Origin: Gammaproteobacteria bacterium
GTDB taxonomy: Bacteria > Pseudomonadota > Gammaproteobacteria > GCA-002705445 > GCA-002716945
Reading direction: 5' to 3'
DNA length: 64,000 bases
NCBI GenBank assembly: GCA_018667355.1
Contig: JABIVC010000010.1
Location: forward strand, 1-64,000
Part shown: positions 42,707-51,636 of the stretch, one piece after another
How the letters are laid out: each line of letters starts with the position of its first letter
How positions within the stretch are numbered: the stretch's first letter is position 1
The notes under the pieces: model-generated
Told to the model about the DNA's origin: nothing
Database searches by the model: none
The model's input: only the letters and a program-made list of their open reading frames with translations
Translations under genes and position numbers: made by a program

Positions 42707-42738
42707 AAAAAAAAGCAGTACAAATATGTACTGCTTTT
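42707..42738 (-). terminator. Rho-independent terminator after the rhodanese gene
   Basis: 12-bp perfect stem AAAAGCAGTACA/TGTACTGCTTTT, 4-nt loop, 8-U tract on the minus strand. Confidence 0.9.
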
Positions 42739-42756
42739 CATTTTAATAAGTATCGA

Positions 42757-43428
42757 TTATTTTACTGTATTAAACCCAAGAATTTCCCAGTTTTGCATAC
42801 CACCACGGTACCACTTGATTTTATCAGCAGGGTAGCCATATTTTAGTAAGCTCTTAATATTGTTTGGTGACTGACCACACCACATTCCATTGCAATACAT
42901 AACTAATGTTTTAGCATCGTTAAAATAGAATAATCCATTTTGCTCTTTAGCACCAAACTTTTCAGTCATGATTTCAGCAATTGATATTGGATCTGCTCCC
43001 TTAGCTTCACTTAAGTGAGTCCACGGAATATTTACTGCACCAGGAATCATACCTTTTGCAACCCAGTCAGGTGTTCTAGAGTCAATAACCATTATTTCAG
43101 ATCCATCAGGCATTTTTTGCCCTTTGCTCATCATAATCGCGTAATGTATTATTTCTTGTTCCCCAATTGTTTCAATCCCAGGCCTTAATTGCATTGGTTG
43201 AACACAAAATGGTGGACATGGCCTTGATGTTTTAGCAAACGCAGGGTTTACTGTATTTTTATTATTTTGATTTCTCATGAATTTCACATCACCACTACCA
43301 GCTGAAACTCCTATTTCTAATGAATTTGGACCGTCAGCTTTTGATATTGCTACTGGCTTATCAGCATATGCAGTAGAGAATGAAAGCATAGAAACTAAAA
43401 CAACACTTAATATTGATTTGATATTCAT
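42757..43428 (-). CDS. Periplasmic rhodanese-domain protein with CPPFC motif
   Basis: Signal peptide MNIKSILSVVLVSMLSFSTAYA; RPCPPFCVQPM; rhodanese DSRTPDWVAKGMIPGAVNIP and active loop YCNGMWCGQSP. AAGGGAGAAGAT before ATG 43428 supports this start over 43494. Confidence 0.88.
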   Translation of the reverse strand: MNIKSILSVVLVSMLSFSTAYADKPVAISKADGPNSLEIGVSAGSGDVKFMRNQNNKNTVNPAFAKTSRPCPPFCVQPMQLRPGIETIGEQEIIHYAIMMSKGQKMPDGSEIMVIDSRTPDWVAKGMIPGAVNIPWTHLSEAKGADPISIAEIMTEKFGAKEQNGLFYFNDAKTLVMYCNGMWCGQSPNNIKSLLKYGYPADKIKWYRGGMQNWEILGFNTVK

Positions 43429-43450
43429 ATCTTCTCCCTTTTTAGTATTA

Positions 43451-43606
43451 TTATTCACAATCTGGCTCTTCTTCGCTTGGCTTTTCTTCCTCATATATTA
43501 CCTGATCTAGACTAGATAGTTTTTGGTTATGATTCAATTCATAACTACCTAAATAGGTCGAGCTTATGGTGAATAAACCCATTAAAAATATTGTTACTAT
43601 TCTCAT
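43451..43606 (-). CDS. Unannotated 51-aa small secreted or membrane protein with acidic, Cys-containing tail
   Basis: MRIVTIFLMGLFTISSTYLGSYELNHNQKLSSLDQVIYEEEKPSEEEPDCE*; GAGG RBS 6 nt before the ATG; ends 22 nt before the rhodanese start. Confidence 0.75.
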   Translation of the reverse strand: MRIVTIFLMGLFTISSTYLGSYELNHNQKLSSLDQVIYEEEKPSEEEPDCE

Positions 43607-43750
43607 GTATTACCTCTATTTGAGTCATTGATAACCATACAGAGCCATCTTTATACCAATTCTACAGTATATGGGTATTTAAATGAACCTATTTATTATG
43701 AAATAGGCATTGGTTATTGTTGGTATTTGCAGGGTATTTTCAGTAAGGGG

Positions 43751-44593
43751 TTATATATCTAACCTGAACCCCCACATTTTTTTTGATTTCTTTTTCATAG
43801 TAAGATCAATTATAGTAGAGCTAGTAGATTCACTAATATCATTCATCAATATTATATTCCCATCAGAATTTGTTACAAAACTTGAGCCCCAAAACTTTAT
43901 AGTATTTTTATTATTACTTTCAACTCCAGTTCTATTTGCTATAACGATAGGAGTATTAATCATCAAACTATTTGCTGCAATTACACCCATCCATTTTTCT
44001 TTTTCATTGAGAAGTGTGATGGGTTTGTTGTTTTTATATGCATATCCTATAGAAGTAGGACATAAAATTATGTCAGCTCCTAATTTATTGATTTGTTGAT
44101 ATGACTCTGAGTGCCATTGATCCCAACAAATCATTAATCCAATCTTACAAATGCCAATATCAATGACTACGTATTTATTCTTTGATTCATTGAAATAATA
44201 TTTTTCCTGATAACATTCTTCGTTGGGTATATGCTTTTTTCTATATTTCCCAATAACAATACCTTTTGGCGATATTAATGCTGCAGAGTTATAAAATTTA
44301 TCTTTATTTTTCTCAAAAAAAGAAAATAGAAAAAAAATTTTTTTCTTCATGCATAGTTCAACCATTGTTTTGACTATTTTTGATGACATACTTATCGCTA
44401 GATTCTTATATTTAGAATTTTTGATAATTGGGAAATATTTTAAGTAAGAAAGTTCATGACTAATAACTATAGTAGGTTTATTTGTGACTTTAATGCCATC
44501 AATTTTCTTAATTAGATTATTTAAGTTTTCATCAATGTTATCACCGACTGGATATTGTAATATTACGATATTTAATTTTTTATTATCTTTCAT
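43751..44593 (-). CDS. aguB: Carbon-nitrogen hydrolase, probable N-carbamoylputrescine amidase
   Basis: Nitrilase fold with putative E/K/C triad (HELSYLKYFP, KYRKKHIP, MICWDQWHSE); 4-nt overlap with the aguA-like gene. Confidence 0.82.
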   Translation of the reverse strand: MKDNKKLNIVILQYPVGDNIDENLNNLIKKIDGIKVTNKPTIVISHELSYLKYFPIIKNSKYKNLAISMSSKIVKTMVELCMKKKIFFLFSFFEKNKDKFYNSAALISPKGIVIGKYRKKHIPNEECYQEKYYFNESKNKYVVIDIGICKIGLMICWDQWHSESYQQINKLGADIILCPTSIGYAYKNNKPITLLNEKEKWMGVIAANSLMINTPIVIANRTGVESNNKNTIKFWGSSFVTNSDGNIILMNDISESTSSTIIDLTMKKKSKKMWGFRLDI

Positions 44594-45612
44594 AATATGA
44601 AATTATTACTACAACAATGCAGGCCTCCAAATTCATTTAACAATGCAGTTGATTCTAAAAAGAAAATAACATGATTTGGAAATAACCCTTTTATATTCTG
44701 CTTCTTATCTTTACCAGTATTTTTGTTTACTGGAATAATTATTAGATCTCCAACTTCTATATAGTTCAAGTAAGAGAATGGTAAGATATCTCCATCAAGA
44801 GATTTAACGATATCTTTGATATCATGATTGACAGCGATCATGGAGTCAATATTATTTGATTTTATAATAATTTCTTCTAATTGTTTCTTTAATTCTTTCA
44901 AGGTTTTATAGTCTGGATGTTTTTTATCATTTGTAGCCATGTATAAAATAGTATTATCATCTTTAAAACGCACAAGATTATCTATATGTCCATCAGTATC
45001 GTCCCCAGTTAATTCTTGTACATTTACAAAATAATAGTTACCATTTATTTTTTTATCAAAAACAGATTTTATTTTACTTTCAATAGTATTCCACGATAAC
45101 GAATTATGTTTAATTATAGAATTTTTATTAAATATATAATCATTATTTGAGTTGATAATATTTCCTCCCTCTATTATTACTTCATTAATCAAGTATTTAT
45201 GATTTAATGAATATCTTTTAATGACATCATTAAAAAACATTTTATCATTATAGTGGTTATACTTGTTACCATACCCGTTGTAACCATGGTTAATTACTCC
45301 TGAATTTGATATTTTAGGCCCATAATCCCGAATCCAGATATCATCAAAGTTATATTCATAAAAAGTTATAAATTTATTATAATCAATATGAATATCAGAT
45401 AACTTATAGTTAGCTTCATATAGATTATTTTCAATATTTATATTTTTATGATGTATTAAGATAATCATATATCGGTTAGAAACAGCTATATTGATAATTT
45501 CATAATAAATTCTAATTAAATCATGCCAAAATATTTTATCCCTATATATGCTTGGCCATACTATCATCAGAGTATTTGTATCTTTGTCAATTATAAAGCT
45601 TTCTTTGGCCAT
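44590..45612 (-). CDS. aguA: Agmatine deiminase (PPAD_porph family)
   Basis: DIWIRDYGP, EGGNI, TGDDTDGHIDNLVRF, ILPFSYLNYIEV, GGLHC. Confidence 0.86.
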   Translation of the reverse strand: MAKESFIIDKDTNTLMIVWPSIYRDKIFWHDLIRIYYEIINIAVSNRYMIILIHHKNINIENNLYEANYKLSDIHIDYNKFITFYEYNFDDIWIRDYGPKISNSGVINHGYNGYGNKYNHYNDKMFFNDVIKRYSLNHKYLINEVIIEGGNIINSNNDYIFNKNSIIKHNSLSWNTIESKIKSVFDKKINGNYYFVNVQELTGDDTDGHIDNLVRFKDDNTILYMATNDKKHPDYKTLKELKKQLEEIIIKSNNIDSMIAVNHDIKDIVKSLDGDILPFSYLNYIEVGDLIIIPVNKNTGKDKKQNIKGLFPNHVIFFLESTALLNEFGGLHCCSNNFIL

Positions 45613-50927: not shown

Positions 50928-51636
50928 AATTATAATACCAGCAAGACTTAAGTCAACTAGGTTTCCTAATAAACTTATAAAAGTTTTTAATGGAAAAACT
51001 TTGATTGAACATGTTTGTTTAAGAGCTAAAAAACTAAAGTATGATTCACTCATAGTAGCTACAGACAGTTTAAAGATAAAAAAAATAATAGATGATATTG
51101 GAGTTCAGACATGGTTTTGTACAAAAAAATATTCATGCGGAACTGAGAGGATAGCTAGCTTATGCGCTGACTTAAAATTTAATAAAAATGATATTGTTAT
51201 TAATATTCAGGGTGATGAGTATAATTTCCCACTAAGTGCTGTCAACAAGGTCATCGCTGATTTAAAAATCTCTAAAAAAAGTATCGTTTCTACGGTTGTC
51301 TGCAATACTAAAGACAAGAAGCTGATTGCGAATAAAGACTCTGTGAAAGTAGTGACTGATATAAATGATAATGCTCTCTATTTTTCTCGACTACCAATAC
51401 CTTACAATTCTAATGAATCTTATTCTCTGCACTTAGGAATATATGGTTACAAAGTTAGCTTGCTCAATATACATGATTCACTTTCTAATTCAAAGTATGA
51501 AGTATCTGAGAGTCTCGAGCAACTGAAATTTATATATAATAATATTCCTGTACACTGTGTTAAAATTAAGAGCCATAATTCGATTAGTATTAATTCTATT
51601 AATGATTTAAAATTAGTAACAACGAGTATTAAATGA
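50917..51636 (+). CDS. kdsB: 3-deoxy-manno-octulosonate cytidylyltransferase
   Basis: IIPARLKSTRFPNK, NIQGDEYNFP, LHLGIYGYK. Confidence 0.93.
   Translation: MKTRIIIPARLKSTRFPNKLIKVFNGKTLIEHVCLRAKKLKYDSLIVATDSLKIKKIIDDIGVQTWFCTKKYSCGTERIASLCADLKFNKNDIVINIQGDEYNFPLSAVNKVIADLKISKKSIVSTVVCNTKDKKLIANKDSVKVVTDINDNALYFSRLPIPYNSNESYSLHLGIYGYKVSLLNIHDSLSNSKYEVSESLEQLKFIYNNIPVHCVKIKSHNSISINSINDLKLVTTSIK

Follow-up and report, generated by a model that had tools for sequence, protein, structure and literature searches.

The window analysed here, a stretch of 64,000 nucleotides from a gammaproteobacterial contig, carries on its minus strand (43606..43451) a small open reading frame of 51 codons that reads MRIVTIFLMGLFTISSTYLGSYELNHNQKLSSLDQVIYEEEKPSEEEPDCE and is followed by the gene for a periplasmic rhodanese. 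The features of the locus, in the direction of transcription, are:

43751..45612, minus strand: aguB-like gene (43751-44593) and aguA-like gene (44590-45612), upstream of the tail gene
43616..43613, minus strand: GAGG ribosome-binding site of the small open reading frame, 6 nt 5' of its ATG, read from the sequence
43451..43606, minus strand: gene for the tail protein, 51 aa, acidic, predicted exported, with a penultimate Cys (frame conserved in the family, where it precedes the rhodanese gene; dN/dS mostly below 1)
43451..43474, minus strand: C-terminal signature EEEPDCE plus stop, GAAGAAGAGCCAGATTGTGAATAA
43438..43434, minus strand: GGGAG ribosome-binding site of the rhodanese gene, read from the sequence
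42757..43428, minus strand: periplasmic rhodanese, 223 aa, start ATG 43428 (PF00581, E = 2.8e-13; probably SoxL-like, by synteny in relatives)
43204..43218, minus strand: CPPFC motif, rhodanese residues 71-75 (C71, P72, P73 and C75 invariant in 52 sequences)
42877..42894, minus strand: active-site loop CNGMWC, rhodanese residues 179-184 (C179 and C184 invariant in 52 sequences)
42739..42710, minus strand: intrinsic terminator, a strong hairpin 3' of the rhodanese gene (z = -6.1; 0/200 shuffles fold as well)

An earlier, sequence-only reading of this DNA had proposed the 51-codon frame as an overlooked gene, and its sequence, the GAGG site, the 22-nt gap between its stop and the rhodanese ATG and the Shine-Dalgarno-led rhodanese start were all confirmed on the letters, as was a terminator downstream of the pair. 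The same reading had pointed out that the automatically called, longer rhodanese start overlaps the small frame. This start (ATG 43494) is not supported, because it is not conserved: in the relative L002 the frame becomes open only immediately ahead of the MKINS start. The N-terminus of the 51-aa protein is hydrophobic and, judged from the sequence, would serve as a signal or an anchor; our signal-peptide judgements rest on hydrophobicity, and an A-x-A-like cleavage site is indistinct in this protein and present in most of its homologues. The protein has one Cys, next to the last residue. Profile searches with Pfam and NCBIfam gave no domain match for it, and none of the tail-type peptides tested against these collections was covered by a family. 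The aguA-aguB-like gene order precedes the tail gene in the window and at the family loci, and an aguB-like gene also precedes it in a distant gammaproteobacterium (L254); we claim no functional link between these neighbours and the tail-rhodanese pair.

A first search of 40 relatives recovered the small gene in frame beside the rhodanese gene in 18 further genomes of the family (in one of them, G003, the contig stops short of the rhodanese), and later searches added two more relatives in place, G007 and G010. Same-genus relatives are 35-78% identical. The frame was kept without an internal stop in the 18 genomes and in G007 and G010; the lack of frame conservation named beforehand as the sign of a false gene did not occur. 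Selection had been expected to hold Ka/Ks below 1, which was the case in nine of the ten informative pairs (dN/dS 0.16-0.84) and failed in one (1.02); the corresponding values for the rhodanese were at most 0.05. The predicted recurrence of an EEEPDCE-type tail next to the rhodanese was also borne out, with the signature P-[DE]-C-[DE] in 21 of 25 family genomes, the four genomes lacking it having a completeness of 69-78%. On this comparative evidence the 51-aa frame is a genuine conserved gene, whose product has a drifting body and a nearly fixed tail.

The partner gene encodes a rhodanese domain behind a signal peptide, as in SoxL, the domain being supported by PF00581, by the AlphaFold model (mean pLDDT 84) and by a fold search whose best PDB matches were rhodanese folds, and the signal being read from the sequence. 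A PDB sequence search with the rhodanese gave a weak match to Uba4 only. Relatives of the rhodanese gene lie behind soxA-SAXB (L028), behind soxXA (L065, L066) and, in L232, last in a sox operon that includes SAXB, the SAXB model score being below its cut-off at the SAXB-bearing rhodanese loci. By this gene order in relatives, the rhodanese is probably SoxL-like. The pair in the window is not beside sox genes; those of its genome sit on another contig.

The spread of the tail protein was assessed in several sets of genomes. At rhodanese loci drawn from a 274-genome sample of Gammaproteobacteria, a relaxed tail rule was applied (an open reading frame of at least 35 aa, a Cys within the last 3 residues and at least 5 acidic residues within the last 12); across the 88 loci and 3890 frames, all matches were immediately upstream of the rhodanese gene and co-directional with it, with none at any other place. 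A codon pattern for E-E-P-[DE]-C-[DE]-stop, blind to neighbours, found 20 sites in the 274 genomes versus 5 for the reversed pattern, and among 399 genomes drawn from across the phylum the sole match to a stricter pattern was the window's own site. Among the matches listed from a pattern scan of named genomes, 107 of 119 ended in a true stop and 80 had an automatic signal call. Of these 80, again among the matches listed, 69 precede a rhodanese within 1.6 kb and three precede a DsrE-like protein, one of the three also lying behind fccB; nearly all carry gammaproteobacterial labels, together with a few labelled 'bacterium' and one labelled Alphaproteobacteria. The last (L251) is a real pair, whose rhodanese groups with those of gamma-labelled genomes. 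Most of the matches listed outside Gammaproteobacteria were read as chance, because they have no signal peptide or a longer frame runs on, and L092, L103 and the match at window position 51318 were likewise taken as chance. A 15-aa tail adjoining thioredoxin and DsrE-like genes (L190) was set aside, as its frame against soxYZ is probably no gene.

Since the pattern-selected sets were chosen by their tail, its conservation within them is not independent evidence; such evidence comes from the family loci and the 88 relaxed-rule loci, and in these sets, which were not picked by the exact pattern, the penultimate Cys is conserved. In a tree of 122 rhodaneses, a sample enriched for tail-positive rows, presence of the tail gene needs 10 changes versus 33.5 when labels are shuffled, and a single supported region of the tree holds all tail-positive rhodaneses. 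The rhodanese need not have this partner, since 37 of the 122 occur without a tail gene. The family spans Gammaproteobacteria and has in-frame members in most genomes of the window's own family.

One hundred distinct members are 41-119 aa long (median 61.5) and share a layout in which a variable, acidic linker joins a hydrophobic Sec-type start to the fixed end E-E-P-[DE]-C-[DE]-COOH; beyond residue 24 their median net charge is -9. A second Cys beyond residue 22 occurs in 46 of them; it lies directly behind the signal, often as C-x-[VI]-[FV]-[AS] (L008, L018, L150, L167 and about 42 others), and is absent from the window protein. Two similar ends were also seen: a lipoprotein-like variant, L053 (G148:C6), ends in LEDDC, with the Cys last and not penultimate, and an EF-hand-like secreted protein of another kind, L330 (G695:C137), ends in EEECD.

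The neighbours of the tail gene connect it to sulfur metabolism. In L156 the order is fccB-tail-DsrE (FccB by PF21706/PF09242, DsrE by PF02635), and the tail gene also precedes DsrE-like genes in L111, L112 and L217; where a DsrE-linked copy is present, the genome mostly has one linked to a rhodanese as well. Within or beside sox genes it was found in three lineages; gene orders include tail-rhodanese-soxXYZA (L025/L243) and soxXYZA-SAXB-Trx-HbpS-tail-rhodanese (L232), and in L218 the tail gene adjoins soxXYZA. In the 274-genome class sample, SoxY was present in 18/18 tail-positive versus 128/256 tail-negative genomes (Fisher P = 7e-6); among rhodanese-positive genomes alone the association is non-significant (P = 0.31), so the link to Sox may run through the rhodanese alone. 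In L183, L230 and L257 the tail gene stands apart from any sulfur gene in the surrounding DNA read. The genome of the window, of about 1.03 Mb (G+C of the window 31%), encodes soxXYZA and the reverse-dsr cluster dsrABEFHCMK on other contigs (L396, L397), from which we read the host as a sulfur oxidiser with a small genome; an initial assignment to SAR86 was given up on account of these genes. The sequence-only reading had suggested a small partner of the rhodanese, perhaps a persulfide or thiol acceptor. Its first part stands, as a genuine gene with a conserved tail paired with a signal-peptide rhodanese across Gammaproteobacteria; for the second, the place of the tail protein beside genes for DsrE-like, FccB and Sox proteins agrees with a function in persulfide or thiol chemistry. 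The Sox/SoxL context and the wider family are additions to that reading.

We consider that there is about an even chance that the tail protein and the rhodanese together act as a sulfane-sulfur relay in the periplasm, with the tail protein as the persulfide acceptor. The SoxL-like rhodanese would take sulfane sulfur from SoxY, or sulfur from thiosulfate or polysulfide, onto C179 of the CNGMWC loop and would transfer it to the one Cys of the small protein, the penultimate residue of a flexible acidic arm. This arm could in turn hand the persulfide onward, for example to sulfur globules, to a polysulfide pool or to an importer that serves the reverse-Dsr pathway in the cytoplasm. Acceptance and onward transfer of a persulfide by the tail Cys we infer from its position, its anatomy and the analogy with DsrC and SoxY; export, interaction, direction of transfer and downstream acceptor are likewise inferred parts of the relay. 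Against it count the rhodaneses that lack a tail gene, the non-significant association with SoxY among rhodanese-positive genomes, the tail genes without sulfur neighbours and the separation of the window pair from sox.

Alternatively, the tail could be a thiol redox partner that carries no sulfur, its Cys forming or reducing mixed disulfides with CPPFC or CNGMWC and thereby resetting or protecting the rhodanese. The invariance of the cysteines in both motifs is in line with this, as are the thioredoxin-like genes adjoining the tail gene in L218 and close by in L232, the redoxin gene near it in L180, and the second Cys behind the signal in nearly half of the members. However, the window protein and about half of the family have a single mature Cys, so they could not cycle through a disulfide of their own, and CPPFC is also found in rhodaneses without a tail gene; we therefore regard this function as unlikely.

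Tails of the same kind also occur outside the small bacterial proteins. In Cocleimonas flava DSM 24830 (L223/L320), an M16-like peptidase, identified by eye, ends in EDEDEEPDCD, and this genome also has a stand-alone tail protein. In viral sequences, the stricter pattern matched 42 contigs versus 9 for a scrambled pattern, and in 34 of those contigs EEEPDCE ends an open reading frame, most with a visible signal peptide, with at least 3 different bodies and with two cut by the contig end (for example L264, L265, L261, L262 and L295, within the range L260-L301). In the T4-like contigs read, the tail peptide gene lies between conserved phage neighbours, and a second pattern, built on the peptide body, retrieved relatives from the same viral contigs. 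The longest viral record is T4-like by its gp23, nearest to Pelagibacter phage Mosig and Methylophilales phage Melnitz (75%), and the viral tail contigs are T4-like where testable. A tblastn search with two viral peptides against phage isolates gave no match, 50-kb stretches of Melnitz-2 and Mosig contained no such tail frame, nor did the 40 kb read from the 123.7-kb viral record away from its own tail gene, and a PHROGs search returned nothing convincing. Given that dsrC and soxYZ occur on known phages, the viral tails might act at the same sulfur step.

The sharing of one tail by the M16-like peptidase and the viral peptides, on unrelated bodies, could also mean that E-E-P-[DE]-C-[DE]-COOH is a general tag, recognised by an envelope enzyme for processing, modification or attachment, with the small proteins as minimal substrates, and to that extent it counts against the relay. 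Save for the peptidase, though, the carriers accepted among the cellular genomes examined are short peptides, mostly beside sulfur enzymes, and the tail lacks the transmembrane segment or basic end of known sorting tags, which makes a general tag quite improbable. Slightly less credible still is a role in storage or nucleation, and not as a stoichiometric carrier, in which the acidic Cys peptide would bind metal or form a coat on polysulfide or on sulfur particles as they arise. The short, strongly acidic peptide with its low-complexity linker would suit such a role, and so would the sulfur-oxidiser setting with a SoxL-like enzyme, SoxL having been proposed to feed sulfur globules (PMC3368242); about half of the members, however, have one Cys, no conserved His cluster was seen, and the order of the tail residues is far more fixed than charge alone demands. 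Lastly, a small regulatory or inhibitory peptide whose tail docks in the active site and so gates the rhodanese would explain the one-to-one pairing of the genes and the acidic C-terminal Cys, but it is highly improbable given that the same peptide stands beside DsrE-like proteins, which belong to another family, with no rhodanese directly downstream (L112, L156, L217).

The relay thus remains the reading that we prefer, and its interest lies in a gap in the pathway. In sulfur oxidisers without SoxCD, the exit of sulfane sulfur from SoxY to globules or to the reverse-Dsr pathway is unsettled, and to our knowledge no acceptor of SoxL has been identified. A conserved and easily missed protein of 40-120 aa with a C-terminal Cys, encoded beside SoxL-like enzymes, is a concrete and testable candidate for the SoxY-exit step, for which sulfur import into the cytoplasm on low-molecular-weight persulfides has been proposed (PMC3397948). 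With copies of the tail on viruses, phages may interfere with this step as well. In its widest form, the proposal would be that proteins ending in E-E-P-[DE]-C-[DE] make up a hitherto undescribed family of very small carriers of sulfane sulfur in the periplasm, which in gammaproteobacterial sulfur oxidisers receive it physiologically from SoxL-type rhodaneses and DsrE-like proteins. T4-like marine phages would then have a tail of their own with which to tap or redirect the periplasmic sulfur flow of the host. We hold this whole to be possible but doubtful.

Among known systems, the tail protein resembles DsrC/TusE (TIGR03342) in its penultimate C-terminal Cys, which in DsrC is the persulfide site and accepts sulfur from DsrEFH in Allochromatium vinosum (PMC3397948). 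DsrC, however, is folded, cytoplasmic and about 110 aa long, whereas the small protein has 51 aa, an N-terminal signal or anchor, a Cys flanked by D/E and no domain match; the window genome itself encodes a DsrC/TusE-type protein (L397), which ends in PTGCV. With SoxY, the carrier of SoxYZ (TIGR04488), it shares the pathway context and would share the periplasmic location and a reactive Cys in a flexible C-terminal arm. The sulfur substrate of SoxY is bound by the Cys of a GGCGG arm (PMC6067878), which extends from a folded domain with SoxZ as partner, while the small protein has neither a SoxY domain nor GGCGG and ends in EEEPDCE. It thus belongs to neither family, because no model matches and both size and motif differ. 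PEP-CTERM-like sorting tags have a C-terminal transmembrane segment and a basic end, in contrast to the acidic end, with no hydrophobic C-terminal segment, found here. Viruses of sulfur oxidisers carry dsrC and soxYZ (PMC8190135), which is a precedent for C-terminal-Cys sulfur carriers on viruses, the viral peptides described above matching the bacterial family in signal, acidic linker and tail only. Finally, the SoxL of A. vinosum (Alvin_2171), proposed to move sulfane sulfur from SoxY to storage globules (PMC3368242), is encoded downstream of soxXAK; although the rhodanese gene of the window is not beside sox, its relatives likewise lie behind soxA-SAXB or soxXA, and it is on gene order and domain that we liken the two enzymes.
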